NCBI RefSeq assembly: GCF_016653405.1
Contig: NZ_NHSN01000019.1
Location: 1 to 64,000, forward strand
Length of the DNA stretch: 64,000 nucleotides
Reading direction: 5' to 3'
From: Halorhodospira halophila
GTDB taxonomy: Bacteria; Pseudomonadota; Gammaproteobacteria; Nitrococcales; Halorhodospiraceae
Position 1 is the stretch's first letter. Each line of letters opens with the position of its first letter. The position numbers and the translations under genes were made by a program. Positions 42,722 through 64,000 of this stretch are shown here, in pieces. The notes below the pieces were generated by a model. It searched no databases and was not told the DNA's origin. It saw nothing but the letters and a program-made list of their open reading frames with translations.

Positions 42722-42731
42722 GCCCCCCTCC

Positions 42732-43763: not shown

Positions 43764-43789
43764 GTGGCATTCTCCTCCATTTCCAGGGG

Positions 43790-44695: not shown

Positions 44696-44777
44696 CGACG
44701 ATCCCCCCCCGGGGGCTTTGCCCCCTTCTCCTTCGCTCCCTCGCCCGACACACCGGGCTTCATCCCGGCGAACCCCG

Positions 44778-45884: not shown

Positions 45885-45891
45885 AGGGGGC

Positions 45892-48508: not shown

Positions 48509-48522
48509 CGGCCCACACCCTC

Positions 48523-50043
48523 CTAGGTAAAGACGATCCCGACCACTACACCATAGGCCACAAAGAGCGCGCTGGTTGCCGAGAAAAACACCACCATCTC
48601 CATACGCCGGCGCCGCCGATGGGCCGGCGTCCGCACCCGACTGATCTGCCCGACCACCGGCCGGCTGGCAAGCTCGCCCAGCTTGCCCGGCGAAGCCACG
48701 GTCCCGCGGATCTGCGCTAGCAGGAAGGCGAAACCGGTCCCCGCAGCCAGCCCCAAGAAGAGCACCGCACTGGCGAGCAACGGCCGGTTGGGCGCCGCCG
48801 GGCTTCCCGGCTGCTGCGGGGGTTCCAGCACCCGAAAGTCCACCGAATCGGTGCCGGTCTCGATCTCCCCGGCCAGTACCGCCTGCTCCAAGCGATCCCG
48901 GAGCTGATCATAACTGCTCTGCAGGGCTTCGTAATCCCGCGTCAGTCGATTGTAATCGGACTGGATCTCCGGGACGTCATCGGCCATGGCCTCCAGCTCA
49001 TCGACCCGCGCCTGGCGCTCGTCGACGCGGGTCTCCAGCGAAGCGACCCGGCTCTCCGCCTCGGCCAGATCCATCTGCAAGGGATTGTCGGCGTCCCCCA
49101 GGCCCACCCGATCCACCGGCGAGGCCAGCAGCTGCTCGCTGAATTCCGCCGCCTGCTGCTCGCGCTCCTCCCGCAAATCCTCAAGGACCCGCCGCGTGTG
49201 TTTCACGTCCGGGTGCGCGTCCGTGTACTGACGGCGCATCTCGTCCAACTCGGATTCCAGGTTGCTGATCCGACGATCAAGCTCCGGATTCTCGTATTGA
49301 CGCGGCTGCATCAACCCAGGCTGGTCGCCATCGCCCTCAAGCTGAGCCACAAGGTGCTCGTACTGGCTCCGTGCCTGGTCGAGCTCGAATTCGGCCTCTT
49401 CCAGGCTCTCCCGCTCCGCCTCCAGGCGGCTGTAGAAGTCCCCACCGGCGACCAGCACCTCCGAGTGCTCGCGCCGGAACTGCTCGATCTCCTCCTCCTT
49501 GGCCCGCAACTCCTCGGCGTACCGCCCGAGCTGGTTCTCGATGAACTCCCGGGAACTCACCAGGTCCCCACGGGGATCGCCCAGCCCCCGCTCCATGAAG
49601 AGGTTGCCGGTCTCGCGCACCACGCGGTAGGCCACCTCGGGATCCCGGTGCGAGAAGGAGATGGTGTAGATGTTCTCATCCCGCCCGCGCAGATCGATGC
49701 CGCGCAGGCTTCCGACCACGGCGTCCAGATCGTCCCGACCCAGCAGGACGTCGAGATCCGCCTCTCGGGCAATCTCCCGGAGATTATCCCGACTGAGCAG
49801 GGTGCTGGTCATCATACTCATCCGCTGCTCGGAATCCGGGCGCACCGCCATGCCGCTGAGCAACGGGTCCAGCACCGAATCGGTATCGACGTAGACCTCG
49901 CTGGAGGCCTGGTAGGTATCCGGGATGGTGTGGATGTAGGCCCAACCCGGGATGCAGACGAGCCAGGCGATGGGCAGGATCCACCACCGCCGGCGCCAGG
50001 TCGCTCTCAGTTGATGCAGGATTTCCTGGACGACCTGCTCCAT
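48523..50043 (-). CDS. XrtA-system polysaccharide chain-length determinant (Wzz/GNVR type)
   Basis: 506 residues from the ATG at 50043 (GGAG nine bases upstream). The membrane span RRRWWILPIAWLVCIPGWAYI is followed by YQASSEVYVDTDSVLDPLL, then long coiled coils. After EPPQQPGSPAAPNRPLLASA comes a second membrane span, then a short basic cytoplasmic stretch and a final hydrophobic segment. It is a close paralogue of the plus-strand gene at 32762-34294. It lies 14 bp upstream of the tyrosine kinase gene, so this copy is the likely kinase partner. First gene of the minus-strand EPS operon. Confidence 0.93.
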   Translation of the reverse strand: MEQVVQEILHQLRATWRRRWWILPIAWLVCIPGWAYIHTIPDTYQASSEVYVDTDSVLDPLLSGMAVRPDSEQRMSMMTSTLLSRDNLREIAREADLDVLLGRDDLDAVVGSLRGIDLRGRDENIYTISFSHRDPEVAYRVVRETGNLFMERGLGDPRGDLVSSREFIENQLGRYAEELRAKEEEIEQFRREHSEVLVAGGDFYSRLEAERESLEEAEFELDQARSQYEHLVAQLEGDGDQPGLMQPRQYENPELDRRISNLESELDEMRRQYTDAHPDVKHTRRVLEDLREEREQQAAEFSEQLLASPVDRVGLGDADNPLQMDLAEAESRVASLETRVDERQARVDELEAMADDVPEIQSDYNRLTRDYEALQSSYDQLRDRLEQAVLAGEIETGTDSVDFRVLEPPQQPGSPAAPNRPLLASAVLFLGLAAGTGFAFLLAQIRGTVASPGKLGELASRPVVGQISRVRTPAHRRRRRMEMVVFFSATSALFVAYGVVVGIVFT

Positions 50044-50216
50044 GTGCGTCCACTCCAGCCAGCTTCGCTGGCGTTTGCTCCGTTGAGGGCGCGGGCCACC
50101 CGCCGCCAAGCTTTCCTCAAAGAGGTGTCAAGATAACTTACGCACAACCTTTAGGGGAAGGGCTCTCCGGCCCGGTGAACCGCGTAGGCGCCTGATTTTT
50201 GGTCCACGCCCCTGAT

Positions 50217-50232
50217 CGGCAGTAATCTTGCA
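50217..50232 (+). promoter_or_regulatory. Sigma-54 promoter candidate for the PilZ gene
   Basis: CGGCAGTAATCTTGCA has the invariant GG (50218-50219) and GC (50230-50231) separated by exactly 10 bases, and a perfect TTGCA -12 box. The -24 box is CGGCA instead of TGGCA. Transcription would start near 50243, 33 bases before the PilZ gene. Confidence 0.6.
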
Positions 50233-50275: not shown

Positions 50276-50893
50276 ATGTCACACATCAAAGTCGCCGAGG
50301 AGCTTGCCGATTTCTGGTGGCCCTTGCTGAAGGAGCAGCCCTGGGACCGGTGGCCCGGCTCGCTGGAAGAGATCCATGAGCAGATCTATCAGGACGTGGC
50401 GACAATCAGCAGCTACCGCAGCCTGTCGCGCCTGCTGATTGCGGAACTGATCGATCGGGCCGGGGCGCCTCCGGTCAAAAACCGCGCGCAGGCAACCATC
50501 TATACCCAGTCGGCAACACCCAGACACCGGGAACTGCTCATCGGTACCCCGTATCTGGACATCCTCTACCCATCAGAGCGCCCATCCAGGCCCGACGCTT
50601 CCCCGCAGCAACCAGCGTCCACCGCGACGTCAGAGCGTCGGCGGCTGCCTAGGCACCGGGTCCGTGCCCAAGGGAGCCTTCATGCTCACCAAACCGAGAT
50701 CCCGTGCGAGATACGGGACCTTTCCCGCCTGGGAGCCCAAATCCGGGTCGAGCAGCCAGAGCGGATCGGTCGACCACTCGCACCGCGGGATATCGTCCGC
50801 ATCCGCATGAGCGGCCGCCGGCCCCGACCCGCCCGAGTCGCTTACGTTGGGCAAAAAGCCTACGGATTGGAGTTTATTGGCCCGCCGACGTGA
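50276..50893 (+). CDS. PilZ domain protein, putative c-di-GMP receptor
   Basis: 205 residues, GGGGAG upstream of the ATG. The N-terminal 100 residues are a helical region of unknown type (WWPLLKEQPWDRWPGSLEEI). The C-terminal PilZ domain has the arginine motif RRLPRHRVR (residues 122-130) and the D/N-x-S-x-x-G motif DLSRLG (148-153), the two c-di-GMP contact sites. It ends in the typical ARVAYVGQKAYGLEFIGPP. It lies between the EPS operon and the acyltransferase genes. With its own sigma-54 promoter candidate, it could tie polysaccharide or surface-protein export to c-di-GMP. Confidence 0.9.
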   Translation: MSHIKVAEELADFWWPLLKEQPWDRWPGSLEEIHEQIYQDVATISSYRSLSRLLIAELIDRAGAPPVKNRAQATIYTQSATPRHRELLIGTPYLDILYPSERPSRPDASPQQPASTATSERRRLPRHRVRAQGSLHAHQTEIPCEIRDLSRLGAQIRVEQPERIGRPLAPRDIVRIRMSGRRPRPARVAYVGQKAYGLEFIGPPT

Positions 50894-51055
50894 TTCTGAC
50901 AACTGAGGCGATTTCGGCCCGGCGCTGAGATCTGATATTGTCGGCGAGACACGCTGGCGCATTTCCTCGATTTTTAAGAGGTTATAACGGGATGGACTCT
51001 GCAATGGACGGTGCGCCTGAGCTGTCTATCTCGGTGGCCTCTGAGGAACGGATTT

Positions 51056-51781
51056 GTGCAACAACCACACAGTTATGATGTAATTCTGGCCGATACGCCC
51101 GAGACCCGGCGACAGCACTTCCGGCTCCGCTATCTTGTGTTCTGTCAGGAGAGGAATTTCGAGCCCCCGGAGGCGTTCCCTAACGGGCTTGAGACCGACG
51201 AACACGATCGGCACGCGCTGCACTTCCTGATCCGTCAGCGCCGCCCCCACGCCCCGTGGTTCGGAGCCTTTCGCCTACTGCTTCCCTCGGGCCGGCCTCG
51301 GCCCATCGAGGCCATGTGCTCGCTGGCAGAGGACGTCCCCCATGAGCGCAGAGGTGAAGTGTCTCGCCTGATCGTGCGACACAGCGCACCGCGGCACTCA
51401 CAAACCGCGCTCTTCCGGCTCTGCCGGGCCGCCCACCAGGCGGCTACAGAGCATGCCCTGGATCAGCTGCTTTTCCTGGTCCGCCCGGGACTGCGGCGGA
51501 TGCTCAACCATCGAGGGCTCCCGCTGAAGCGCTTTGGCGAGCCATGCTGCCACCGCGGTCTGCGTTACCCATGCGGCAATGGCTTGGGGCCGCTTGGGAG
51601 GGGGCTGGAGCACTGGCAATGCAAGGAGGGATACCCGGGACATCAGCAGGAGGAGCCGGCGTATCGGCGGGCGTCCGCGTTGATCAGACCCAGCGGCACC
51701 CACCCGGCACTGGACCAGCCTCTCCGGACGCGGCTACCGGCAACCCCGGCTTCCGCAGCGGATGCGCCCACCGCTGGCTGA
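51056..51781 (+). CDS. PEP-CTERM/exosortase-associated acyltransferase, copy 1
   Basis: 241 residues from GTG at 51056, GAGGA eight bases upstream. The fold is GNAT-like, related to autoinducer and N-acyl amino acid synthases. The conserved part includes HFRLRYLVFCQERNFEPPE, then ETDEHDRHALHFLI, WFGAFRLLLP and GEVSRLIVR. In this family the acyl group probably comes from acyl-ACP and the acceptor is unknown. The C-terminal 50 residues are Pro, Ala and Arg-rich and do not look like the core family. It is followed by a second member of the same family. Confidence 0.88.
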   Translation: MQQPHSYDVILADTPETRRQHFRLRYLVFCQERNFEPPEAFPNGLETDEHDRHALHFLIRQRRPHAPWFGAFRLLLPSGRPRPIEAMCSLAEDVPHERRGEVSRLIVRHSAPRHSQTALFRLCRAAHQAATEHALDQLLFLVRPGLRRMLNHRGLPLKRFGEPCCHRGLRYPCGNGLGPLGRGLEHWQCKEGYPGHQQEEPAYRRASALIRPSGTHPALDQPLRTRLPATPASAADAPTAG

Positions 51782-51896
51782 ACCGTTCCACCACGCCGCG
51801 GTGGGGCATCCTGCCCTCGGCGATGCGCCGTGGTAGCGGGCGCGCTATAGTGTCCGAAAAACCCCAACACTCTAGCGGCCACTCAAGGAGCCAGCC

Positions 51897-52709
51897 ATGC
51901 GTGACGTGCCGGGACACACGCCCATAACGACTGCCTTCAAGGAGCTCTTCCGGCTGACCCTGGCCGGCAACCCGCAGGAGCTCGCAGAGGCACAACGCCT
52001 GCGCTACGACGTCTACTGCACTGAGCTGCAGTTCGATGCCCCCGAGAACTACCCCGATCAGCGGGAGACGGACGAGTTCGAAGACCAGTCCTGGCACTGC
52101 CTGCTTCGCTATGAGCCACCAGACCACCCGTCCCTGCACCGGATCGCCGGCCATGTCCGCATCGTCCACGTCGACGCCAACGCCACGCACCCGGAACTGC
52201 CCTTGGTCCACAACTGCCGCGATTCCCTCAACCCGGAGGATCCGGATCACCCGGCAGCCCACGACCCGGTGTCGATCTGCGAGATCTCGCGCCTGGCGGT
52301 GCACAGCGACTTCCGGAGACGCCACGGCGAAGGCAAATCCGCTTACGGCGACCTGGATGCACTGGCCGCGATCGAAAACCACCCACGGACCTTCCCGCTG
52401 GCCGCGGTGAGCCTGTTCATGGCGTCGGCGCGGATCGTTCAGCTCGCCGGCAAGGAACACGCCTACGCCATGATGGAGCCGCAACTCGCCCGTCACTCCG
52501 GCCGGCAAGGTCTGCATTTCCGGCAGATCGGCGAGACCCTCTACTACCATGGGCGCTGGCGTGCCCCCTTTCACATCCGCTTCTCCGAGGCCATTGAGAA
52601 CATCCAGCAGTCCGAACAACTGCTCTCGCCACTATTCCGCATGGCCACGAAGCAGATCCCGACGCTGCGCAGCTTCCAGCAGGCGTCGGCACTCGAAACC
52701 GAGCGGTAG
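51897..52709 (+). CDS. PEP-CTERM/exosortase-associated acyltransferase, copy 2
   Basis: 270 residues, AAGGAG seven bases upstream of the ATG. Family features: AQRLRYDVYCTELQFDAPENYPD, RETDEFEDQSWHCLLRY, AGHVRIVHVD and SICEISRLAVHSDFRRR. It is longer and more complete than copy 1 and resembles autoinducer-synthase-like acyltransferases of exosortase loci. It precedes the ThiF-like gene by 28 bp and is probably co-transcribed with it. The acyl donor and acceptor are unknown. Confidence 0.9.
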   Translation: MRDVPGHTPITTAFKELFRLTLAGNPQELAEAQRLRYDVYCTELQFDAPENYPDQRETDEFEDQSWHCLLRYEPPDHPSLHRIAGHVRIVHVDANATHPELPLVHNCRDSLNPEDPDHPAAHDPVSICEISRLAVHSDFRRRHGEGKSAYGDLDALAAIENHPRTFPLAAVSLFMASARIVQLAGKEHAYAMMEPQLARHSGRQGLHFRQIGETLYYHGRWRAPFHIRFSEAIENIQQSEQLLSPLFRMATKQIPTLRSFQQASALETER

Positions 52710-52737
52710 CCCAACGCGCACTGGAGAGGGGATCGCA

Positions 52738-53634
52738 TTGACGGAATTCGATTACGCCACTGCGTTCAAACGCACCATCGGCTGGGTCACCCCCGCCGAA
52801 CTCAACCGATTGCGCCAAGCCCGAGTCGCCATCGCCGGACTGGGAGGGGTCGGAGGCAGTCACCTACTCACGCTGGCGCGATTGGGCATCGGCGGTTTCA
52901 GCCTGTCAGACTACGATCAGTTTGAGCTGCACAACCTCAATCGACAGGCCGGCGCCACCATGGACAGCCTCGGCCGCTCAAAGCTTGATGTCCTCCAGGA
53001 ACAGGCCCTGGCCATCAACCCCGAGCTGTCCGTCGCCACCTTCCCTGGCGGCATTGACGCCGACAACGTAGACGCCTTTCTCGACGGCGCCGACGTCTAT
53101 GTCGATGGCCTTGACTTCTTCGCTTTCGAGACACGGCGACTGGTCTTCGCCCGGGCCGCCGCGCTCGGCATCCCGGCGGTGACCGCAGCACCGTTGGGGA
53201 TGGGCGTTGCCCTGCTAAGCTTCGACCCCGAGGGGTTGTCGTTCGATGACTACTTCGACCTGCGCAGCGGGCTCAGCGATGAGGAGCTTGCCGTGCGGTT
53301 CATGGTTGGACTTGCCCCGGCCCGGCTGCACATGCACTATCTGGCCGACCCTTCGGCGGTGGATCTCGCCGCGCAGCGGGGGCCGTCGACACCCATGGCC
53401 TGCGAGCTGTGTGCAGGGGTCATCGGTACCGAGGTGCTCAAGGTCGTTCTCAACCGCGGCCCGATTCGCTGGGCCCCGCACGGGCTCCATTTCGACGCCT
53501 ATACGCAGCGCATGGCCCGCACCTGGCGCCCGGGCGGCAACCGCAACCCCCTGCAGCGGCTGATGATCCGGATCGCCCTCCGGCGCCTGGCCGCCATGCG
53601 GAACGACCACCAAGCCGCTCAAGCTGGTCGCTGA
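52738..53634 (+). CDS. ThiF/E1-like adenylyltransferase domain protein
   Basis: 298 residues from TTG at 52738, with GGAGAGGGG upstream. The nucleotide-binding site reads VAIAGLGGVGGSHLL (residues 30-43), followed by LSDYDQFELHNLNRQ (56-70), where Asp58, Asn67 and Arg69 match E1 ATP- and Mg-binding residues. A late Cys-x-x-Cys (CELC) may hold zinc or act as a thiol site. E1-like enzymes adenylate a C-terminal carboxylate or a small-molecule carboxylate. No ubiquitin-like partner is visible. Between the acyltransferase and the exporter genes it may activate a carboxylate in the same pathway. Confidence 0.88.
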   Translation: MTEFDYATAFKRTIGWVTPAELNRLRQARVAIAGLGGVGGSHLLTLARLGIGGFSLSDYDQFELHNLNRQAGATMDSLGRSKLDVLQEQALAINPELSVATFPGGIDADNVDAFLDGADVYVDGLDFFAFETRRLVFARAAALGIPAVTAAPLGMGVALLSFDPEGLSFDDYFDLRSGLSDEELAVRFMVGLAPARLHMHYLADPSAVDLAAQRGPSTPMACELCAGVIGTEVLKVVLNRGPIRWAPHGLHFDAYTQRMARTWRPGGNRNPLQRLMIRIALRRLAAMRNDHQAAQAGR

Positions 53635-53646
53635 ATGGAGGATCCC

Positions 53647-54474
53647 ATGCCCCTATCGAAAGCCTGCTGGCCTTCGCATCGTATTCTGGCGGCCCTGCTG
53701 GGTGCTGCCATGCTTGCCCCTGCGGTGGCACTGGCGGACGAAGCCCCGAGCGGCGAGGAACTCGCCCAGGCCGTCTTCGACCGACCGGACGGCGACGATC
53801 TGGTCACCCGCGGCAGCATGACCCTCACGGGCGAACGTAGCCGGGACCGGGTTCGGGAGAGCTTCGAGTACCGACTCGATGGTGCCGATGGCGAGAGTTG
53901 GAGCCTGATCCGCTTCACCTCGCCGGCCAATATCGAGGACACGGCCCTGCTCGTCCACAATCACGCCGACGGCGAGAGTGACCAATGGCTTTACCTCCCG
54001 GCGGCCGATCGGGTTCGGCGTGTCAGTGGCGACAACCGCGGCTCGAGCTTCGTCCAGTCGGATCTGTACTTCGAAGACCTGGAAGACCGCCGCCCGGAGG
54101 AAGATGAACACCGGCTGATCGGCACGGACACCTACGGCGGCCGGGAGGTCTGGCTCTTGGAGAGCAAGCCGGTGGAGGCCGACAACTCCACCTACTCCAG
54201 ACGCCTGCGCTGGATCGATCCTGACACCCTGGTCGAGCTGCGCATCGACTTCTACCGCGGCGGCGAGGATCCGATCAAGCGGCTTGAGGTCCAGGAGCTG
54301 GAGAAGATCGACGGCTACTGGACCGTCACCCGCAGCACCATGAGCCACCTGGAGCAGGGCACCCAGACCGTCCTCGAAGTGGATGACACCCGTTATGACC
54401 AAGGCCTCCCGCAGGATCTGTTCACCAGTCGTGTCCTGTCGAACCCGAGCCGCGAGCGCCCCTTCCGGCCCTAA
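53647..54474 (+). CDS. LolA-like outer-membrane lipoprotein-sorting-type periplasmic protein
   Basis: 275 residues from the ATG at 53647, with GGAGG six bases upstream. A signal peptide is visible (RILAALLGAAMLAPAVALA). The mature part has the pattern of the LolA-like family often paired with RND exporters: SMTLTGERSRDRVRESFEYR, SLIRFTSPANIEDTALLVHN, DQWLYLPAADRVRRVSGDNRG, and QSDLYFEDLE. It probably ferries a lipid or hydrophobic molecule across the periplasm. It begins 12 bp after the ThiF-like gene and overlaps the next gene. Confidence 0.9.
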   Translation: MPLSKACWPSHRILAALLGAAMLAPAVALADEAPSGEELAQAVFDRPDGDDLVTRGSMTLTGERSRDRVRESFEYRLDGADGESWSLIRFTSPANIEDTALLVHNHADGESDQWLYLPAADRVRRVSGDNRGSSFVQSDLYFEDLEDRRPEEDEHRLIGTDTYGGREVWLLESKPVEADNSTYSRRLRWIDPDTLVELRIDFYRGGEDPIKRLEVQELEKIDGYWTVTRSTMSHLEQGTQTVLEVDDTRYDQGLPQDLFTSRVLSNPSRERPFRP

Positions 54475-55912
54475 CCCGGGCCGATGGCTGGTCGGATTGC
54501 TCGTCGTTGCACTCCTGGGGCCCACAAGCGCGGTCCAGGGGCAGACGCTGCGCTTCGATGCGCCGGAAGAGAACGCAGAGGCCAGTGACGCCGATGCCGA
54601 AGACACGGAAAGCGGCACGCGGCCGGCGCAAGGGCTGCTTGACGACTGGCGCTTTCGCTTGGAGAGCGGGCTGCTCGAGTTCGGCGCGCTGACCTCCGGC
54701 GACCGCCCGCAGGACTGGACTGCCCACGGCCGCAGTGTTCTGCGCGCCGACCGCTCCATCGGCACGCAGTGGGAAGTTCGCCTGGGCGCTCGCATCGACG
54801 CCTATGCACAGCAGGGTGGCGAATATCCCGCCGTCTCGACCGCCGAACTGGACTACGGGGAGAACTTCCTGCGCTACCGGGCCATGGACTGGCAGATGAC
54901 CCTGGGGACGCAGAAAATCCTCTGGGGCCGGGTGGATGAGACCCCGCCCACGGACCGCCTCAGCACCAAGGACCTCACCCGCTTCGCCCTGGATGAGCTC
55001 GCCGACCGTCGGCGTGCCAGCCCGGCTGCCCGGCTCGAGTATTTCCAGGGCCCCTGGAAGCTCGACCTCGTCGGGCTGATCGGCTTCCGTGAGGCCGAAT
55101 TGCCTGACGACGACAGCATCTGGCACCCGGTCGACCGTGAGGCTGGACGTCTGCTCGGACTCGACCCGGAGGCCGAACTCCCGAACGGAACGCCATTGAG
55201 CACACTGATCCAGAACGCCGACTTCGGGGACGCCCCCTCTGGCCGCGGCGGCGGCGGGCTGCGCATCAGCCGGGACGGCCAATCCGTGGACTTCGCCGCC
55301 ACGCTGCAGCGGGTGCGGCACTCGCAGCCGTACTACCGGCTCAGTGACGATAGCCAGGCAGAGTTGGGCGCACTCAACCCCAACGACCCCCTTCCCTCGG
55401 TCACTTTTGATGCCGAGCACCCCATGACCTGGGTGGTCGGCGGCGATCTCGGCTTTGTCACCGGCGGCTGGACCTGGCGCATCGAGGCGGCCTGGCTCAG
55501 CGATGTCCCCATCACCCGGGAGGAGGATTTTGCCTACGACAAGACCGAGGGCTTCGACTGGGTCATCGGCACCGAAGGCTTCCCCACCCCACGGGACGAT
55601 CTGCGCCTGACCGTCCAGCTGCTCGGCGAGCACCTTATAGACGCCGAAGATGCGCTAGATCCGGATGAGATCTATTACATCAACGGCGAGATCGAGGACT
55701 TCTTCCTGCGCAACGAGTGGCGAGCCCGCCTGCGCTTCTCGGCGGCGATCAACCGGCGCGACAACTACCTCAACCCCGAGCTGGCCTGGATCGCCGCCGA
55801 GCCAAATGAGCTGTTCTTCGGCGGGCACTGGATGGGCGGCGAGGACGACAGCCTGGGCGGCTTCTACCGGGATCGCCGACTGCTTGTCGCCGGATGGCGC
55901 GGCCAGTTTTAA
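54431..55912 (+). CDS. Outer-membrane beta-barrel protein of an RND-LolA export cluster
   Basis: 493 residues if GTG at 54431 is the start, which gives a plausible signal peptide (LVGLLVVALLGPTSAVQGQ). An ATG at 54395 is also possible. The frame overlaps the end of the LolA-like gene. The mature protein has an acidic linker, then repeated strand-like segments (WEVRLGARIDAY, WRIEAAWLSDVPI, WRARLRFSAAIN) and ends RRLLVAGWRGQF with a C-terminal Phe. This fits the barrel protein (DUF1302-like) found next to LolA-like and MMPL/RND genes. It would form the exit path or acceptor in the outer membrane. Confidence 0.78.
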   Translation: MSCRTRAASAPSGPNPGRWLVGLLVVALLGPTSAVQGQTLRFDAPEENAEASDADAEDTESGTRPAQGLLDDWRFRLESGLLEFGALTSGDRPQDWTAHGRSVLRADRSIGTQWEVRLGARIDAYAQQGGEYPAVSTAELDYGENFLRYRAMDWQMTLGTQKILWGRVDETPPTDRLSTKDLTRFALDELADRRRASPAARLEYFQGPWKLDLVGLIGFREAELPDDDSIWHPVDREAGRLLGLDPEAELPNGTPLSTLIQNADFGDAPSGRGGGGLRISRDGQSVDFAATLQRVRHSQPYYRLSDDSQAELGALNPNDPLPSVTFDAEHPMTWVVGGDLGFVTGGWTWRIEAAWLSDVPITREEDFAYDKTEGFDWVIGTEGFPTPRDDLRLTVQLLGEHLIDAEDALDPDEIYYINGEIEDFFLRNEWRARLRFSAAINRRDNYLNPELAWIAAEPNELFFGGHWMGGEDDSLGGFYRDRRLLVAGWRGQF

Positions 55913-55926
55913 AGGACACTGACGGC

Positions 55927-58182
55927 ATGCAATGGATGCTCCACCGCCCGCGGCTGGCCCTGATCCTCCTGGCCCTTCTGGTCCTGCTGCCCGGCCCCCT
56001 GCTGCTGCAGCTGCAGATCGACAACGCCCCAGAGAGTTATTTCCCGGAAGAGGCACCCGCCGTTGTCACGGATCAACAGGTCCGCGATATCTTCCCCCAG
56101 GAGCAGCTACTGGTGGCGCTCTTCGAGGGGGATGACCTCTTTGAAGCGGATTTCCTCGGCCGCCTGCACGCCCTGGTGGAGGACCTGGAGGCCGCACTCA
56201 CCGTCGAGCGTGTCCTCGCCCCCACCACCAACGACCACATCCGGGCCACGGTGGACGGTTTCGCCGTCGAGCGGCTGATCCGCGTCAACGAACTCGACGA
56301 ACGGACCGCCGAGCACTGGCGGGAGCGGGTGACCGGCGATACGTTCGCACCCGGCTTCCTGGTGGCCGAGGACGGCTCGGCGCTAGCCATCCTTGCCCGC
56401 CCCCACGCCCTGGAGGACAGCCTGCAGCGCCTGGAACTCGAGCAGCGCATGCGGGCGGGCATCAAAGAGCACGGGCTCGAGGCGCAATTGACCGCCATCG
56501 GCGGACACATCGCCCTGGACGTGGCGCAGCTCCAGTCCATGATCAACGACCTGATGCTACTGGTCCCCGGCACCCTGGGCATCGGCCTCCTGCTGCTGTG
56601 GTTCCTCTTCCGCCGCATCCTGGTCCTGATCCTGGCAGCGGCCACCATCAGCGCAGTCACCGGGGCCGCCATGGGCCTGCTGGTGCTGCTGGGCAAACCC
56701 TTTACCCTGATCACGGCCATCGTACCCCCGCTACTCACGGCGCTCACGGTCGCGATGCTGATGCACTTCTTCAACGCGGTGCTCCACCATGCCCGACGGG
56801 GCGCAGTGGGGCCGGACCGGGTGCGCGCTGCCCTCCGGGATGTGGCCCGCCCCACGCTATTCATGGCGCTGACCACGGCAGTGGGCCTGGCGTCGCTCAC
56901 TGTCAGTCCGATTCGTCCGATTGAGAGTTTCGGCTTGATCGCCGCCTTCGGCGTGGTCTTCGGGGCGCTGTGCGTGCTCTTCCTGATCCCGGCCCTGGTC
57001 CTGCGCTTCGACCGCGGCCCGTGGGTCAGGCGTCGCGGGGCGATGGCAGGACTGGACCGCTTCACCGCCACCACCGCCCGTTGGGCGGTGCGCCGACCCG
57101 GGGCCATCCTCGCGGTCACCGCCCTGGTCATCGTGGTCTCCATCCCCATGATCCGCCAGGTGGAGGTGGAGACCGACCTCTACGAATTCTTCGCCGACGA
57201 TCATCCGCTGACCCAGGCTACCCACCGGATCGAAGGACAGCTCTCCGGGGTCATGCCCCTGGAGGTCATCTTCAAGGGGCCGGACGTGGACAGCCTGCTC
57301 GACCCGAAGCGGCTGGAAGCCATGGCACAGGTCCAGGAGTGGCTCGACGAGCGACCGGAGGTGGACTACAGCCTCTCTCTGCCCGATCTGGTGGCCGAGA
57401 TGCACTGGGCCTTCCATGAAGAGGATCCGGACTACCGGCGCATCCCCGATAACGAGGCCCTGATCGCCCAGTACCTCTTCATCCACGACGGCCGCGACCT
57501 GTTCGATGTGGTGGACAGGGACTACAGCCAGGCGCGGCTGATGCTCAACCTGAACGCCACCGGGGCGCGGGAGCTCAATACCCTGATCGATGACCTGCGC
57601 GACCACCTGGCAGCAGAACCGCCGGCCGACCTGGAGTGGGACCTAACCGGCATGGGCCGGCTCTTCGCCGATCAGGAGCGGCTGCTGATCCAGGGGCAGC
57701 TGCACAGCCTGCTGGTGGTCGTGATCGCCATCTTCATATTGATGCTGATGATGTGGCGCTCGGCCACCGTAGCGGCCGCCAGCATGGTGCCCAACCTGGC
57801 CCCGATCCTGCTGATCTTCGCGCTTATGGGGCTGCTGGGTATATGGCTCGACATGGCCACCGCCATGATTGCCAGCGTGGCCGTCGGCATCGCCATCGAT
57901 GACACGATCCACTTCCTTCACGCCTATCGATCCCGACGGGCCCGGGGCGCGTCCACGGTGTGGGCGATCGCCCGCGCCTCCCGGCAGGCCGGACGGGCCA
58001 TTACCGCCACGACCATCATCCTGGTGGGGCAATTCCTGCTGGTCGGCACCTCGGGATTTCAGCCCACCCAGGCTTTCGGCCTGCTGACCGCCTTCGGGCT
58101 GGTGGTGGCGCTGATTGTCGACCTGGTGGTCCTCCCGGCCCTGCTAATGGCGACAAGAAGGCGTCAATTCCGAGGTATGTAG
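55927..58182 (+). CDS. RND superfamily (MMPL-type) transporter
   Basis: 751 residues from the ATG at 55927 (AAGGA upstream). Topology is RND-like: one N-terminal span (ALILLALLVLLPGPLLL), a periplasmic loop beginning DNAPESYFPEEAP, five spans, a second single span (ILAVTALVIVVSIPMI), another loop and five more spans. Repeated signature regions are PLLTALTVAMLMHFFN in the first half and GIAIDDTIHFLHAYR in the second. At about 750 residues it is shorter than drug-efflux pumps and like HpnN and other lipid exporters. The co-encoded LolA-like and barrel proteins support export of a lipid or acylated compound to the outer membrane. Confidence 0.93.
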   Translation: MQWMLHRPRLALILLALLVLLPGPLLLQLQIDNAPESYFPEEAPAVVTDQQVRDIFPQEQLLVALFEGDDLFEADFLGRLHALVEDLEAALTVERVLAPTTNDHIRATVDGFAVERLIRVNELDERTAEHWRERVTGDTFAPGFLVAEDGSALAILARPHALEDSLQRLELEQRMRAGIKEHGLEAQLTAIGGHIALDVAQLQSMINDLMLLVPGTLGIGLLLLWFLFRRILVLILAAATISAVTGAAMGLLVLLGKPFTLITAIVPPLLTALTVAMLMHFFNAVLHHARRGAVGPDRVRAALRDVARPTLFMALTTAVGLASLTVSPIRPIESFGLIAAFGVVFGALCVLFLIPALVLRFDRGPWVRRRGAMAGLDRFTATTARWAVRRPGAILAVTALVIVVSIPMIRQVEVETDLYEFFADDHPLTQATHRIEGQLSGVMPLEVIFKGPDVDSLLDPKRLEAMAQVQEWLDERPEVDYSLSLPDLVAEMHWAFHEEDPDYRRIPDNEALIAQYLFIHDGRDLFDVVDRDYSQARLMLNLNATGARELNTLIDDLRDHLAAEPPADLEWDLTGMGRLFADQERLLIQGQLHSLLVVVIAIFILMLMMWRSATVAAASMVPNLAPILLIFALMGLLGIWLDMATAMIASVAVGIAIDDTIHFLHAYRSRRARGASTVWAIARASRQAGRAITATTIILVGQFLLVGTSGFQPTQAFGLLTAFGLVVALIVDLVVLPALLMATRRRQFRGM

Positions 58183-58326
58183 AAAAAAGACCGCACACAG
58201 CTTGTGTCGAACAATCTACCATCTTCTGCAGCGACAGATTCGAGTCACCCGGCGGGAACCAACAACGCCCGGCTTTCCCCTTATTGGTCAACGCCTTCCA
58301 TAGCACCTTGGCTCTCAGGGGCTTTG

Positions 58327-58341
58327 TGGCACGTATCCTGC
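58327..58341 (+). promoter_or_regulatory. Sigma-54 promoter of the first PEP-CTERM gene
   Basis: TGGCACGTATCCTGC matches the consensus (TGGCACG, then GC). GG (58328-58329) and GC (58340-58341) are separated by the required 10 bases. The -12 box is CTGC instead of TTGC. Predicted start is near 58353, 35 bases before the ATG. Confidence 0.8.
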
Positions 58342-58387
58342 GATACCTGTGATGCGACGACCCACTGCATCACTAGAGGACACGACC

Positions 58388-59365
58388 ATGAACCGCCGCA
58401 ATGTTCTATGGATGGCGACCATCGGGGTTGGGCTGGCCGCCCCGACCGCCTGGGCCGGCCCCTTCATCATCGATGTGGGGACCGACTTCAGCGGCAATGA
58501 CCGCACTACCACCGAACCCATCCGAACCCTGGGGTTCAGCAATATCTACGCGACCTCCTTCTATCTTGGTGATCCGAATACCATCGGTACCACCATCATC
58601 GACACCAACATCCTCAGCGAGATGAACGGGCTCGGCTACAGCGCCGGGACGTACCCCGCTTTGGATGGCACCAGTCAAGTCACCCTGCGTGACCCCAACA
58701 TGGTTGCAGATCGCTCGATTTCCCGCCTTCAGTACGAGGATTCCGACACCTCCGGGATCAATGCCGGCAACCGCCACAGTGGAGAGAACTGGGCATCCCC
58801 GGACAACGAGGGCTGGGGGCTGACCTTTGATTACCGCATCGAGGGCCGCATCGTGGAAGGGCCCGGCGGCGACCCGGAGCCGTATTTCGACAGCGGGTAC
58901 TTCGACGTTTTCTATCAGAACGGTCCTTCTGAACAACGGACCCAGGTTCTCCGGATGGTGCTCGAGGACTCCGTGCTACAAGCGCCCAATCTGGATCTTC
59001 TGGGCATCCTCACCTACGAGGACTTCGATTCCGACAGCGCCCTGGTTCAGGACTTCTTCCTCGACACTGAAACCGGTCGCACCTTCTATGATCTGATCAC
59101 TGAGGGTGAGGTGATTTCCATCTCCTGGCGCCTGGATACCAACGTGGACCCGCCGCTGCCACTCGACTCCAATCTAGCGGACCTCTCCGCGGAGAACGGA
59201 GATATGGTGTTCGCCCGTCAGACGGAGCTGAGCGGCTCGGTCCGATACCAGGTCAACCAAGTTCCGGAACCGACGACCATCGGGCTTCTCGGACTGGGCC
59301 TTATGTGGCTGGCTTGGGTGATGGGGAAGGGGCGGAGGTCGAAGATGAATCTCCGCGCTAGTTGA
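58388..59365 (+). CDS. PEP-CTERM surface protein
   Basis: 325 residues from the ATG at 58388, with GAGGA seven bases upstream. A signal peptide is present (VLWMATIGVGLAAPTAWA, cleavage before GPF). The body is acidic and beta-rich without cysteine. The C-terminal sorting signal begins VPEPTTIGLLGLGLMW (PEP at 293-295), followed by a membrane span and the basic GKGRRSK. XrtA should cleave near the PEP motif. It shares several motifs with the next PEP-CTERM protein on the opposite strand. The tail after the basic cluster (MNLRAS) is slightly longer than usual. Confidence 0.95.
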   Translation: MNRRNVLWMATIGVGLAAPTAWAGPFIIDVGTDFSGNDRTTTEPIRTLGFSNIYATSFYLGDPNTIGTTIIDTNILSEMNGLGYSAGTYPALDGTSQVTLRDPNMVADRSISRLQYEDSDTSGINAGNRHSGENWASPDNEGWGLTFDYRIEGRIVEGPGGDPEPYFDSGYFDVFYQNGPSEQRTQVLRMVLEDSVLQAPNLDLLGILTYEDFDSDSALVQDFFLDTETGRTFYDLITEGEVISISWRLDTNVDPPLPLDSNLADLSAENGDMVFARQTELSGSVRYQVNQVPEPTTIGLLGLGLMWLAWVMGKGRRSKMNLRAS

Positions 59366-59374
59366 TACCACGCT

Positions 59375-59414
59375 CAAAAAACTACCGGGCAACCTCTAAA
59401 GGGTCGCCCGGTAG
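59375..59414 (-). terminator. Rho-independent terminator between convergent PEP-CTERM genes
   Basis: CTACCGGGC (59382-59390) and GCCCGGTAG (59406-59414) form a 9-bp stem. On the minus strand the stem is followed by TTTTTT (the A-run at 59376-59381), so it ends the minus-strand gene. On the plus strand there is no T-run, but the hairpin may still help terminate the convergent gene. Confidence 0.85.
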
Positions 59415-59446
59415 CCCGTCAGAAGTAGCAGGTTGGATTTGACTTA

Positions 59447-60343
59447 TCAGACCTGATCAGCGTCCCGGCGACGATAGCCGACCGTTAGCCCGATTCCGGC
59501 GAGCCCGAGTCCAAGCAACGCCAAGGTTGCAGGCTCGGGCACATTGACGCGCGCCGTCATGTTCAACTCATTACGCACGTAAGAGACAAAGTCACTATCT
59601 CGATCCACATCGATTTCACCCGAGTCTGATATCTCGTCAGGATCTCTGTTGGTGTCAGCTCTCAGTGAGAGGGGAATCTCCATACCGAGCAAAGTTCCCC
59701 AAGTCTCTCCGCTACCGATGTCGCGAAAAACCGGAAGGCCTTCCTCTTCGATGACCTCGGTGATTTCCGCATTAACGACCAGGTTCCCGGGCTCTCCGCT
59801 CCCCGAGGTAACAGCAGCATCCAGGATACGAGTCTCGTTTTCCCCGTCATGGTAGTTCAGGCCGATAGAACCGGTATCAAAATTGATACCGACGGGATCC
59901 TCCGGGTCACCAAAGACCATCCCCTCAAAGTTGAAATCGAGTGTCAACCCCCAGAAGGCGATTTCTTCGCCGTTAACCTCAAACGTATCTCCCCACTCAG
60001 TGGCATTACCACTGAACCCAGTCGCATCCTGCTCAGCCCGGGTGGTGTCCTCGTCCCAGCTGATCGAGCGATCTGACAAGGTCGGCGTTGTCAAGCCAAG
60101 TAACTCCAAGGTGTCGGCGTCATTGGTCGCCCGCACCCCCCGGACGTCAACGCCGTCAGTAGTCCCCAGAACATCCGTAAACAGGGACGTCTCGAACACG
60201 TTGCTTTCACCGAACACGCCCCGCTCGATGACGCCGTCGTTGAACTCCATCTGGAAAGGCCCCGCCAGAACCGCTGCCGGTGCAGCCATAAGCCCGACGG
60301 CCAACCCTTTGATGACCTGCTTGCCTACCTGTTTCCTAGCCAT
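59447..60343 (-). CDS. PEP-CTERM surface protein
   Basis: 298 residues. Signal peptide GLAVGLMAAPAAVLA, then GPFQMEFNDG. The C-terminal sorting signal is VPEPATLALLGLGLAG (PEP at 269-271), followed by a span and YRRRDADQV. It shares DRSIS, a WGLTxDxxxEG motif, FD(S/T)G and an R-x-DTN-x-DP motif with the plus-strand PEP-CTERM protein, so the two are paralogues. Codon use is less GC-rich than in the surrounding operons. It has its own sigma-54 promoter and terminator, so it is a single-gene unit, probably highly expressed when PrsR is active. Confidence 0.95.
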   Translation of the reverse strand: MARKQVGKQVIKGLAVGLMAAPAAVLAGPFQMEFNDGVIERGVFGESNVFETSLFTDVLGTTDGVDVRGVRATNDADTLELLGLTTPTLSDRSISWDEDTTRAEQDATGFSGNATEWGDTFEVNGEEIAFWGLTLDFNFEGMVFGDPEDPVGINFDTGSIGLNYHDGENETRILDAAVTSGSGEPGNLVVNAEITEVIEEEGLPVFRDIGSGETWGTLLGMEIPLSLRADTNRDPDEISDSGEIDVDRDSDFVSYVRNELNMTARVNVPEPATLALLGLGLAGIGLTVGYRRRDADQV

Positions 60344-60390
60344 TTCGCTTGCCCCTTACGTGATGTTCGCTTGGCCACACCGCTTATCAA

Positions 60391-60405
60391 GCAAGCGACA
60401 TGCCA
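60391..60405 (-). promoter_or_regulatory. Sigma-54 promoter of the second PEP-CTERM gene
   Basis: Read on the minus strand, TGGCATGTCGCTTGC followed by T is a near-perfect sigma-54 site: GG (60404-60403) and GC (60392-60391) are 10 bases apart, and the -12 box is TTGCT. Predicted start is near 60379, about 35 bases before the ATG. Confidence 0.88.
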
Positions 60406-60554
60406 GAAAGCGCGCCTAAAAACTAACTTCTTGTTTAAAAGGAGATTTTTTTAACTTTCCGGCGGCGTCCACAACACACACACCCAACCACACGGACCCC
60501 ATGTAAAAAGAACTGACACCGTCTGCCCAAAGGGTTGTTGCCGCCACCACCAGC

Positions 60555-63299
60555 CTACTCCTCGCGCCGGGCATCGCTGAGCAGCTCCTCCGCCTCATCA
60601 CGGGCATCGAAGGCGTCGTGTTCGGCGAGCAGACGATCAAGAAGATCACGCGCCTCGTCATTCTCCCCCAGGGTTACCAGGCCGCGGGCGAGGTTGACGC
60701 CGATATCCGGCTCCTCGCCGGCCTGATCCCACGCCTGCCGCAGCAATTCGACGGCGCGCTCGGGCTCACCAGTGTCAAGTAAAATGACACCGTAGGTGTC
60801 GAGGACTTCCGGCTGCTCCGGTGCCCGCTCGTGGGCCCGGCTGGCGTAGTCTCGCGCCCGTTCCGGATCCTCGGTGCGATACAGCCAGGCCAGGTTGTTC
60901 AGTGCGATGACATCCTCGCTCTGGTGCGCCAGCTGTTCCTGGTAGACCTCCCGTGCACGCTCCGAGTGGCCCTGCTGCATCAGGCCACCGGCCAGCGCGT
61001 GGCGAACGGCGCTGTCCTCGGGGTGGTCCGCCAACCAGCCGCTAAGCTGGTCGAAGGCATCCGCATGGCGACCCGCGTTGGTCAGGGCCTGGTACCCCTC
61101 CAGCACCCAGGTTCGCCGCTGCTCGTCCGCCAAAACCTGCTGATACCCGTCCGCAGCCTCCTCGAACCGGCCCGCGCGCAGGTCCAGCCAGGCTTGGTGG
61201 ACGCGCACGCCCGGCTCATCCCCATGCGCCTCGAGGGCGGGCCCAAGGACCTCCCGCCCCTCGTCGAAACGACCCAGCCAGCCCAGCTGACGGGCCAGCG
61301 CGATACGCGCAGGCATGTGCGTAGGCTCCCGCTCCACGGCCTGCTGCAAGGTCTCAACAGCAGTCTCCCGCTGCCCTGCCAGGATCTGGCTGCGGGCCAG
61401 GCGGTACCGCAGCTCCGCCGACTCCGGATCCGCCTCCACCGCCTGCTCAAGCAACTCGGCGCTGCGCAGGGCGTTGTCCATGCCCTCATACTCTTCGGCC
61501 GCCCGCGCCAGCACGCTCACGTCGTCCGCATTGTGCTCGACCATCCGCTCGAGCCAGTCGATCACACCCGCCTCATCGCCGAGTTCGCGGTTGAGCTGCA
61601 CCAGTCGGAATCCGGTGACCGGCTCGCCGGGGTACGCGTCCTGCGCGCTCTCCAGAGCCTCGAAGGCTGACTCCAGATCCCCAGCCATCAGCGCCAGCGC
61701 GCTGAGGTTCTGAGACAGGCCCGGGTGCCCGGGGAGCCGCTCCAGACCCTCGCGGAGAACCGCCCGAGCGGCGTCGAGGTCTTCTTGCCCCATTAGGGCG
61801 GCCGCATGGAAGGAGTAGCTATCGGGCTGCTCGGGGGCCTTCTTGCGCAGCCGCTCCGCAGCCTTCTCGGCCTCATCGAAGCGTTGCTCCTGCAGATGCG
61901 CCATCAACACGGCGAGGTCCGCCTGGCGTGGCTGCTCGTCGGCCTCGGCCGCAGCCTCCAGCATCGCCAGCCCCCCCTCGCGATCCCCATCCTGGGTCAA
62001 GGCAACCCCGAGCATCTCGCGGATGGCCGCGGTATCCTGCCCGGCATCTACCATCCCACGCAGCGCCTCCACGCCGCGCTCACGCTCGCCGGTATCCAGG
62101 TAGAGCGCAGCCAGCCTGGGCCCGAGCGCATCACGCAGGTCCGGGCGCTCCTGCACCACCTCGGCCAGGGTGTCCCGGGCGCGCTCCGGGTCCCCCTGCT
62201 CCACCCGCAGGTTGGCCAACAGGGTGTAGCTGCGGGCATTGCCCGGACCCAGCGCATGGAATCGCTCCAGGTAATGCTCCGCCTGGCGCACGTTGCCGGC
62301 CTCCAGATGGATCTGCGCCAGATACGGCATGGGCGGGCGGTAGCGGTCGTGCCGGGCCAGCGCGGACTCAAACTGGCGGCGCGCCTCATCCCGGTCGTCC
62401 CGCTCCACCGCCACCAGGCCGGCAAGGAAATAGCCGCCGGGATGGTCCGACGCCCCGTCGCGCACGAAAAGGGCGTCCTCCTCGGCACCATCGATCTCGC
62501 CCTGTTCCAGGCGCAGGGAGCCGCGGCTGAGGCGTTCGTTGATCCCCTGGGGCTGCAGTTCCACAGCGCGGTCATAGGCGGCGAGCGCGTCCTCCAGATC
62601 GTCGCGTAGCCGCGCCAGGTCCCCCTTGAGGGACCAGCCCAGGGCCAGCTCATCGTCCGTGCGCACCGCCCGATCCACCGCCACGCTGGCCTCGGGCTGA
62701 TCTCCGCGGCTCAGGGCCTCATAGGCACCGGCCAGGTGGACGAGAGCATTCTCCGGCGCCGCTTCACGCGCCGCATCGAGATCCGCGCGGGCCTGCTCGC
62801 GGGCATCTTCTCCGGCCCCAAAGCCGCCGATGGCACGATAGGCGAGGAACTCCGCGCGCTCGCGCCCTTCGAGGTCGGGCTCGGGCAATTCCAGGACCGC
62901 AGCGCCTTGGCGCGTCTCCACCAGCAATCGGGCCAGCGGCAGGGCATACCGATCCGCGTCGGCGCCCTCGTCCAGGGCCCGGCCCAAGTGCCGGATCGCC
63001 CCGTCCGTGCGCCCTTCGCCCTTCATGGCCAGCCCGAGCTGACCGCGCACCTGCGCATCCTCTTCACGCTGCAGCGCGCTCCGGTAGTCGATCACCGCAC
63101 TGCCGTAATCCCCCTGCTCCATGGAGCGCTCAGCACGCTCGAGCAGCTCTTCCTGGGTCAACTCACCACAGCCGACCAGCCCCGCCGCCAAAAGGGCGGC
63201 GAAGCCCACAGCTTTTAGACCTTGGCCAAAGGAGTTTCCAACCCGCTGCCCCAGACGCTCCAGATCGCCGCCGACCTGCCAGACTACGCTCTTGCACAT
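60555..63299 (-). CDS. prsT: XrtA/PEP-CTERM system TPR-repeat lipoprotein PrsT
   Basis: 914 residues from the ATG at 63299, where GAGGGA has proper spacing; the ATG two codons earlier is too close to it. A late lipobox, LAAGLVGCGE, places the lipidated cysteine at residue 44 after an unusually long N-terminal region. The rest is a continuous array of about twenty TPR-like helical pairs, for example LERAERSMEQGDYGSAVIDYRSAL and NNLAWLYRTEDPERARDYA. PrsT is a conserved member of exosortase A loci and is thought to act as a periplasmic scaffold. It follows prsR by 2 bp. Confidence 0.94.
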   Translation of the reverse strand: MCKSVVWQVGGDLERLGQRVGNSFGQGLKAVGFAALLAAGLVGCGELTQEELLERAERSMEQGDYGSAVIDYRSALQREEDAQVRGQLGLAMKGEGRTDGAIRHLGRALDEGADADRYALPLARLLVETRQGAAVLELPEPDLEGRERAEFLAYRAIGGFGAGEDAREQARADLDAAREAAPENALVHLAGAYEALSRGDQPEASVAVDRAVRTDDELALGWSLKGDLARLRDDLEDALAAYDRAVELQPQGINERLSRGSLRLEQGEIDGAEEDALFVRDGASDHPGGYFLAGLVAVERDDRDEARRQFESALARHDRYRPPMPYLAQIHLEAGNVRQAEHYLERFHALGPGNARSYTLLANLRVEQGDPERARDTLAEVVQERPDLRDALGPRLAALYLDTGERERGVEALRGMVDAGQDTAAIREMLGVALTQDGDREGGLAMLEAAAEADEQPRQADLAVLMAHLQEQRFDEAEKAAERLRKKAPEQPDSYSFHAAALMGQEDLDAARAVLREGLERLPGHPGLSQNLSALALMAGDLESAFEALESAQDAYPGEPVTGFRLVQLNRELGDEAGVIDWLERMVEHNADDVSVLARAAEEYEGMDNALRSAELLEQAVEADPESAELRYRLARSQILAGQRETAVETLQQAVEREPTHMPARIALARQLGWLGRFDEGREVLGPALEAHGDEPGVRVHQAWLDLRAGRFEEAADGYQQVLADEQRRTWVLEGYQALTNAGRHADAFDQLSGWLADHPEDSAVRHALAGGLMQQGHSERAREVYQEQLAHQSEDVIALNNLAWLYRTEDPERARDYASRAHERAPEQPEVLDTYGVILLDTGEPERAVELLRQAWDQAGEEPDIGVNLARGLVTLGENDEARDLLDRLLAEHDAFDARDEAEELLSDARREE

Positions 63300-63301
63300 G
63301 A

Positions 63302-64000
63302 TCATTCCCTCAATCCGAATTTATCGAGCAGCGTGTACAACGTCGGCCGGGTCACCCCCAGCAGCCCCGCCGCCTGGGCGATATTGCCGTTGCAGCGACT
63401 CAGGGCCCGGATCACCGCCTGCTGCTCGGCTCGATCGCGGACCTGCTTGAGCCGCAGGGTGTCGTCCCCTTCCTCATCATTACCCGGCACCTCCAGACCG
63501 AGTTCCTCCGGGGTGATCCGTTTGCCGTCGGCCATGATCACCGCCCGGCGGATGACATTCTCCATCTCGCGCACGTTCCCCGGCCACGTGTACGCCTCGA
63601 TGGCATCGATGGCCTCCGGCGTGAATTCGCGCCGCGGCTGTTGCTGCTCGCGGGCGAAGCGCTCGAGCAGCGAGTGCGCGACGAGGGCAGCATCGCCCTG
63701 GCGCTCGCGCAGCGCCGGAATGGTGAGTTCGATCTCGGCGACCCGGTAGAAGAGGTCTTCTCGGAAATCCCCCTCGCGGATCATCTGCCCCAGATCCCGG
63801 TGGGTGGCACAGACCACGCGCACATCCACCGGGATCGACTGCCGGCCGCCGACCCGCTCGATGACTCGCTCTTGGAGAAAGCGCAGCAGCTTGGCCTGCA
63901 AGCTCAGCGGCAGATCGCCGATCTCATCGAGAAACAACGTACCACCGTCGGCGTACTCGATCTTGCCGATGGTCTGCCGGTGGGCGCCGGTGAACGCGCC
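63302..64000 (-). CDS. prsR: XrtA system response regulator PrsR, sigma-54 activator (5' end outside the window)
   Basis: The last 232 residues of a sigma-54-dependent NtrC-type activator. The frame is open to the window edge, where it reads [25 protein letters not shown] is the loop that contacts sigma-54. Walker B is [14 protein letters not shown], and the arginine-finger and sensor-2 regions follow. The C-terminal Fis-type helix-turn-helix is [26 protein letters not shown]. Adjacent prsT identifies it as PrsR, which with the histidine kinase PrsK controls exosortase A loci. The receiver domain and prsK must lie beyond the window. Confidence 0.93.

Follow-up and report, generated by a model that had tools for sequence, protein, structure and literature searches.

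Candidate sigma-54 promoters with PrsR-type activator boxes before two PEP-CTERM genes of Halorhodospira halophila

Previously, a sigma-54 motif accompanied by an upstream activator motif was reported before PEP-CTERM genes, co-occurring with PrsK, PrsR and PrsT (Haft et al. 2006, PMC1569441). In this study, we analyzed the first 64,000 nucleotides of contig NZ_NHSN01000019.1 (C19) of Halorhodospira halophila, further referred to as the window, in which two PEP-CTERM genes (gene 1 and gene 2) are preceded by sigma-54 elements and by boxes resembling that activator motif. This promoter architecture is of an already described kind. As in the sites of Haft et al., a sigma-54 motif lies near the start codon downstream of an activator motif ending with TTTACA (the 3' end of our box is the TTTACA of their motif 1), PrsK, PrsR and PrsT are encoded near the exopolysaccharide (EPS) locus, and the targets are mostly single genes. 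Their activator motif (YGTC...TTTACA) is found before gene 2 and, with a degenerate 3' half unlike that of the described sites, weakly before gene 1. Further differences are that the site occurs here also before EPS-cluster gene runs, whereas Haft et al. note only a few sites in front of other genes, and that neither a helical lattice nor an element resembling the binding site of integration host factor (IHF) is mentioned in the available text of that paper.

Two other systems are comparable. The pepA gene of Aquincola tertiaricarbonis is RpoN1-dependent, with a mapped start and a TGGCAC/CTGCTT promoter (PMC9850573), and shares with our locus a PEP-CTERM gene beside prsT, an upstream enhancer and a putative hairpin terminator. 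However, pepA is located upstream of prsT, whereas gene 2 is downstream of it and gene 1 is convergent to gene 2, and both proteins analyzed here, P0001 and P0002, fall short of the cut-off for PepA. The regulator DVUA0057 of Desulfovibrio vulgaris, similarly predicted to control PEP-CTERM genes, gave enrichment of five predicted PEP-CTERM targets in a DNA-affinity-purification chip (DAP-chip) experiment (PMC3333781); unlike the present case, this host is distant, DVUA0057 is carried by a plasmid, and a legend in that paper states that no binding motifs were validated for its regulator group. The two promoters described below would add a clear-cut new case to a regulatory system whose prediction dates from 2006 and which has since been tested only in part.

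Promoters of the two PEP-CTERM genes

The elements in question, in window coordinates, are:
58203..58224, plus strand: PrsR-type activator box of gene 1 with a degenerate 3' half (TGTGTCGAACAATCTACCATCT), starting 124 bp before TGG
58327..58341, plus strand: sigma-54 -24/-12 element of gene 1 (TGGCACGTATCCTGC), found by pattern and matrix
58388..59365, plus strand: gene 1, PEP-CTERM protein of 325 aa, profile match, weak similarity to PepA
59447..60343, minus strand: gene 2, PEP-CTERM protein of 298 aa, profile match, sharing 29% identity with protein 1 and weakly similar to PepA
60391..60405, minus strand: sigma-54 -24/-12 element of gene 2 (TGGCATGTCGCTTGC), found by pattern and matrix
60499..60520, minus strand: PrsR-type activator box of gene 2 (GGTGTCAGTTCTTTTTACATGG), starting 115 bp before TGG, also recovered by a class-wide pattern search

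Both proteins exceed the cut-offs of the PEP-CTERM models (PF07589: 25.8 and 30.3 against 20.7 bits; TIGR02595: 24 and 24 against 16) and possess a C-terminal PEP motif, a hydrophobic stretch and a basic end. They gave the only matches over the Pfam cut-off reported in the genome search; weak PF07589 matches on C25 and at C19:82.7 kb (E 1.78 and 3.6) were dismissed by eye. With the PepA model (NF033554) the scores were 27.2 (P0001) and 39.1 (P0002) against 80 bits, and a protein search with P0002 in the named genomes gave no match.

An earlier reading of this DNA, made from the sequence only, had proposed sigma-54 sites with exact GG-N10-GC spacing about 47 bp upstream of both start codons. 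Both are present (the gene 2 site running from 60405 to 60391), with GG and GC 10 bases apart in the TGGCAYR-N4-YTGC context, and 46 and 47 bases lie between GC and the ATGs at 58388 and 60343. GG-N10-GC counting was discarded as uninformative in DNA of 67% GC: since the spacing occurs 701 + 937 times in the window (1,638 in total), it is worthless here when taken alone. Applying a more complete sigma-54 matrix, built on the general consensus with approximate weights, we found that just two window positions, counting both strands, reached 15 bits, i.e., the sites of gene 1 and gene 2. Genome-wide, the strict pattern TGGCAYRNNNNYTGC was found 22 times versus 9 times for its reversed control (about 2.4-fold), and, given this together with the GG-N10-GC count, sigma-54 matches alone constitute weak evidence.

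The two sites rise clear of chance because of the activator box upstream of them. De novo motif search by expectation maximization (EM), also from random seeds, was performed on 49 upstream regions (50 with a sigma-54 score of at least 11.3, one being too short; genes of PrsR-negative genomes were included) and yielded the box YGTCGRnAnnYYTTACA, which scores at least 10 bits in 46 of the same 49 regions that trained the matrix. At 11 bits the box is oriented forward in 46/49 and reverse in 4/49, a count leaning forward with a matrix trained on forward strands. The copy before gene 2 is good (18.7 bits; 17.8 with a matrix rebuilt without this genome). Among 127,958 window positions only 4 reach 13 bits, three of which precede a sigma-54 element at a distance fitting the lattice described below. 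The fourth (60770-60791, minus strand; 13.4 bits with the activator matrix) is a palindrome, GTGTCA-N7-TGACAC, situated within the 3' terminal part of prsT; no good sigma-54 element follows it at a distance of 50-160 bp.

When box and sigma-54 element were scored together (further called a composite), totals of at least 24 bits were reached three times in the window and in none of 20 Markov shuffles of the same 64 kb, the strongest being that of gene 2 (36.4 bits). Moreover, for five of the 22 strict sigma-54 sites the 230 bp upstream contain a box scoring 13.7 bits or higher, whereas the other 17 do not exceed 5.7 bits; it is this split that makes the pairing, and not the box alone, stand out. 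Both PEP-CTERM sites, which also helped to train the matrix, are among the five.

PEP-CTERM genes were considered across 59 genomes (our own and relatives), 28 of which gave PF07589 matches at E <= 0.01; PrsR (TIGR02915, E <= 1e-140) was found in 22, all among these 28. Of the 80 PEP-CTERM rows, four were left out, and for one of the other 76 upstream DNA was lacking. A sigma-54 score of at least 12 precedes 39 of the 60 PEP-CTERM genes of PrsR-positive genomes (our two included), compared with 2/60 on the antisense strand and 3.8% in Markov shuffles.

Helical spacing between box and promoter

In 46 genes, the distances from box to TGG clustered with a period close to 10.8 bp (R 0.79, reached by none of 2000 jittered sets), and R was again 0.79, at 10.7 bp, with equal weight given to each of 21 genomes (no null run). 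Class-wide pattern searches in 369 genomes revealed composites in 88 and 43 genomes, against 3 and 0 matches for the reversed control patterns. The gaps of 199 sites (150 matches listed from the first search, in which more existed, and 49 from the second, covering 76-106 bp; our own C24 and gene 2 sites among them) peak at 52, 63, 74, 85, 96 and 106 bp with sparsely populated valleys, and for 82% of them the deviation from a 10.7-bp lattice, its phase fitted to the same data, does not exceed 2 bp, versus 47% expected if uniform. The best period was 11.15 bp for all 199 sites (R 0.705), 11.25 for short gaps (R 0.77) and 10.55 for long gaps (R 0.515), values that none of 300 uniform sets and none of 300 jittered sets reached. 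The seven composites found in our genome deviate from the lattice by -1.2 to +2.4 bp. A smaller set, drawn from 80 named PrsR loci of which 23 contained a total of 31 composites (near-duplicate loci included), gave a period of 10.3 (R 0.67; no null run).

The box-to-promoter gaps thus follow a strong helical spacing rule, which is perhaps new to the literature. The mean spacer of 62.8 (standard deviation 10.6) given by Haft et al. (PMC1569441) fits the main lattice peak at 63, and dependence on the face of the helix has been described for a two-site NtrC system (PMC7408454). For PEP-CTERM promoters we did not find helical spacing described in the literature searched: in the available text of Haft et al. 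the word "helical" occurs only within a reference title, and that of a comparative sigma-54 paper (PMC3162934) contains no mention of EpsH, PEP-C or exosortase. Natural promoters with such quantised enhancer spacing would be well suited for studying short-range looping in sigma-54 systems.

Within the spacer of gene 2, one additional element was recognized:
60424..60436, minus strand: IHF-like element, 31 bp before TGG, with one mismatch (counted by inspection) to WATCAANNNNTTR, which we take to be the IHF consensus

The spacer of gene 1 has no such element at up to two mismatches. In 107 spacers, pooled from three overlapping kinds of set, matches with at most one mismatch in either orientation start at -28 to -32 in 24 cases and at -18 to -22 in 11, and other five-base bins hold 0 to 5. 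The reverse-oriented form was found in 34/107 spacers (mean 6.05, maximum 13 in 20 shuffle sets) and the forward form in 20/107 (mean 4.75, maximum 8). As most spacers have none, an IHF-like element near -32 is suggestive for some promoters and does not constitute a rule.

The activator and the rival explanations

We consider it quite probable that these are sigma-54 promoters controlled by PrsK and PrsR through a helically phased box, and that they belong to a wider regulon. A sigma-54 promoter would drive each PEP-CTERM gene, staying closed until phosphorylated PrsR acts. PrsK would activate PrsR, which would bind YGTCGRnAnnYYTTACA 115-124 bp upstream of TGG, loop over and melt the promoter. 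The box would need the proper helical orientation toward the promoter, for which reason its distance would change mostly in whole helical turns, and an IHF-like bend near -32 may help the loop in some promoters. The regulon would extend to a PilZ-acyltransferase operon, to a gene group with HPr-rel-A and GMP_PMI, and to a third protein whose tail is of sorting type. The sequence itself shows the sites, the boxes, their spacing, the co-occurrence with PrsR and the corresponding promoters of similar genes in relatives; RpoN use, PrsR binding, phosphorylation, looping and the role of IHF are inferred.

The regulators are encoded next to the promoters:
60555..63305, minus strand: prsT (TIGR02917), 473.1 against 312.2 bits
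63302..64000, minus strand: part of prsR (TIGR02915); the whole gene is C19:63302-64681, with prsK upstream

PrsR matches its profile along positions 1-445 of 445 (711 against 502.6 bits), and the closest named PrsR, from a metagenome-assembled genome (MAG) of Ectothiorhodospiraceae, is 94% identical over the full length; PrsK (TIGR02916) scores 714.8 against 300 bits. The statement that the window encodes PrsR holds as to the identity of the regulator, of which only the C-terminal part is inside the window. The combination claimed earlier, in which two genes identified by model score as coding for PEP-CTERM substrates have promoters of sigma-54 type and PrsR nearby, was supported, and to it can be added the PrsR-type box of both promoters, weak at gene 1.

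In the 369 genomes, composite and PrsR (E <= 1e-140) occur together in 86 and are both missing in 246 (p ~1e-46, not corrected for kinship). This co-occurrence and the binding of DVUA0057 in D. vulgaris support PrsR as the reader of the box.

Several observations weigh against this explanation. The 3' half of the gene 1 box is poor, with TACC in place of TTACA, and the box score drops from 13.7 to 11.3 bits with the matrix made without this genome, which nevertheless ranks this box within the top 4 of the 127,958 positions of the window. Taken alone and at one mismatch, the box shows scarcely any genome-wide enrichment (135 places, about the first 100 of them listed, versus 112 for the reversed control). 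The gaps between TTACA and TGG, 96 and 105 bp, exceed the 32-92 nt of Haft et al. (PMC1569441), which is an observed range and not a definition, their motif 2 being 17 nt long with ends that may differ by a few bases; 49 of the 199 class-wide sites came from the 76-106 bp search. At such gaps, the range of both promoters here, the lattice is looser, as the R of 0.515 indicates. In genomes without a PrsR match, 6/15 PEP-CTERM genes are still preceded by a sigma-54 score of at least 12 (shuffles 2%). Seventeen genomes of the 369 carry the composite without PrsR, some of them being incomplete and only E <= 1e-140 being counted as PrsR, and 20 carry PrsR without a strict composite. G008, assembled in one contig and lacking PrsR and PEP-CTERM matches at the cuts used, has a 36.5-bit composite before a VpsR-like gene, so PrsR is not the sole reader of this box in every genome. 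Finally, an activator encoded on C20 of our genome is nearly identical to PrsR, in the stretch VTRPTLYxLLDK, within a region that presumably corresponds to the recognition helix of Fis-type domains. The gene of this activator (L006:1067-2269, minus strand), a protein with a short N-terminal part, lies on a 4.3-kb contig.

The last two points bear on a rival explanation, which we regard as unlikely: the promoters would be sigma-54-dependent, with the VpsR-like protein of C13 or the PrsR-like protein of C20 as the main activator reading the same box, and the surface proteins would then follow cyclic-di-GMP or another signal instead of PrsK. Besides the C20 stretch and G008 with no PrsR match, it is favored by composites before VpsR-domain genes in G000, G003, G006 and G009 (the latter weak, 22.1 bits) and by a box-preceded operon opening with a gene for a PilZ protein. 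However, the composite tracks PrsR strongly across the 369 genomes, the VpsR-like protein differs in the recognition stretch (GISRVTLYRIM), 10 of the 14 scanned VpsR-domain loci from PrsR-positive genomes have no composite at 22 bits (24 of 35 VpsR-domain loci were scanned), and it is DVUA0057, the PEP-CTERM regulator predicted by Haft et al., that binds such promoters in D. vulgaris (PMC3333781). In the literature searched, no paper joining PEP-CTERM with VpsR was found. PrsR is thus the likely, and not the exclusive, reader of the box.

Control of gene 2 by its own PrsR-dependent promoter has to be weighed also against read-through from prsK-prsR-prsT, with that promoter playing a minor part. 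Both genes had been described as single units, the minus-strand one with its own terminator, and the latter was indeed found:
59376..59414, minus strand: terminator-like hairpin with a U6 tract, of Rho-independent type, after gene 2, found by folding

The fold has -34.8 kcal/mol over a 65-nt stretch (z -6) and is followed by UUUUUU. However, gene 2 begins 211 bp after prsT on the same strand, so gene 2 may in part be transcribed by read-through, and its status as a single unit is putative. In line with read-through, a simple scan of 58100-60700 reported neither a sigma-70-type site nor a terminator, although the hairpin after gene 2 also escaped it. Against this stands the composite of gene 2, the strongest in the window, and we find read-through as the main source of gene 2 expression improbable. 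Mere coincidence of the two sigma-54 sites, GG-N10-GC and TGGC-like strings being common in DNA of 67% GC, is very improbable, as the GG-N10-GC count and the thin genome-wide excesses of strict sites and of one-mismatch boxes are outweighed by the split of strict sites according to their boxes and by the shuffles, none of which produced a composite of 24 bits.

The wider regulon and the EPS genes

The sequence-only reading had found no such site for the EPS operon and had predicted that the surface-protein substrates are switched on independently of it. The core XrtA/EPS run and the export-epsB2-prsK-prsR-prsT group indeed have no composite at the thresholds used, but a confinement of this wiring to the substrates is not supported, nor does the EPS side as a whole lack the site: the same composite precedes the PilZ-acyltransferase operon and the HPr-rel-A/GMP_PMI group. 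The features of the window concerned are:
36809..50109, minus strand: core XrtA/EPS gene run from chain-length determinant to amidotransferase (XrtA at 39907-41475), a predicted operon
50124..50145, plus strand: PrsR-type box of the PilZ-acyltransferase operon (GGTGTCAAGATAACTTACGCAC), found by composite scan
50217..50231, plus strand: weak sigma-54 element of the same operon (CGGCAGTAATCTTGC), at 93 bp from the start of its box
50276..58182, plus strand: PilZ-acyltransferase gene run, divergent from the core EPS operon, a predicted operon judging by the same-strand run

Seven composites were found in the DNA scanned: those of gene 1, gene 2 and the PilZ-acyltransferase operon, one at C19:76477/76371, and those on C13, C24 and C30, which were scanned because the screen for strict sigma-54 sites with a box had flagged them. 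This list is a lower bound, as the strict pattern was applied genome-wide and the matrix in selected stretches.

The -24 element of the PilZ-acyltransferase promoter is weak (CGGCAGT, 9.4 bits), which probably explains why it was missed earlier. The run encodes a PilZ protein (50276-50893; 33 against 22.5 bits), two exosortase-associated acyltransferases, a ThiF-like protein, products of two unassigned open reading frames and an RND-type transporter (below cut-off). Composites are immediately followed by homologs of the PilZ gene in G007 (56% identity), G010 (34%), a Thioalkalivibrio MAG (L225) and Halochromatium (L226), as well as in three more Thioalkalivibrio genomes (L230-L232; 26-28%, the next gene being about 40% identical to the acyltransferase), and in G009 a PilZ homolog directly precedes an acyltransferase gene. 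With 25 of 26 acyltransferase loci scanned and 1.5-kb flanks limiting the view, composites were seen in 4 of the 14 genomes having the family (G000, G007, G009 and G010), so this promoter is not universal.

The box at C19:76477, outside the window, is the strongest of the seven (21.8 bits). It precedes genes for an unassigned secreted-type protein and an HPr-related kinase A (both within L013:17349-19294, minus strand) and for GMP_PMI. One similar case, judged by eye, was seen among relatives, Halochromatium (L226, position 13061, plus strand), with a composite before genes for a secreted-type protein and, by eye, an HprK-like protein. Autoregulation of prsK-prsR by this strong box was considered and rejected, as a galE-like gene (named by eye) on the other strand intervenes and the export-epsB2-prsKRT group is without a composite. 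Sorted surface proteins and some EPS-cluster operons, whose connection had been denied, are predicted to be linked.

On C24 (L160), a composite is followed by a gene for a DUF1194 protein (5560-6369, minus strand) and then by a second prsT (3065-5515, minus strand; 510.2 against 312.2 bits). The tail of this DUF1194 protein, VPGTAALFGLGLLLL...RR (VPGTA-type), resembles a sorting signal and was not reported by PF07589, which suggests that the activator consensus may point to targets missed by the protein model. Behind 30 composites in other genomes, at least 13 next genes encode a sorting-type tail judged by eye. A separate sorting-tail rule, applied to the named PrsR loci, is a crude one.

The composite of C13 stands in front of a gene for a VpsR-domain sigma-54 activator (38.4 against 23.7 bits), which overlaps a gene for an outer-membrane protein resembling FapF (108.6 bits, well short of the cut-off of 700), the pair being at L159:6166-8582, plus strand. 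Extending these observations, we would suggest, tentatively and with more doubt than conviction, that PrsR-type enhancers may obey a torsional rule, the box being placed across the class almost exclusively at full helical turns from the sigma-54 element (52, 63, 74, 85, 96 and 106 bp, often with an IHF-like bend fixed near -32), that the box may be common to PrsR and VpsR-like activators, and that sorted surface proteins, the PilZ effector, the VpsR-like regulator and the FapF-like exporter may form one sigma-54 matrix regulon joining the PrsK signal to cyclic-di-GMP.

The seventh composite, on C30 (L161:5271-5367, minus strand), precedes a gene for a 167-aa protein without a family match, followed by NsrR-like and Hcp-like genes recognized by reading the translations, an unexpected context of nitric-oxide type. 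Furthermore, GGDEF-type proteins, recognized by eye, are encoded downstream of a composite in two other genomes (L137 and L158).

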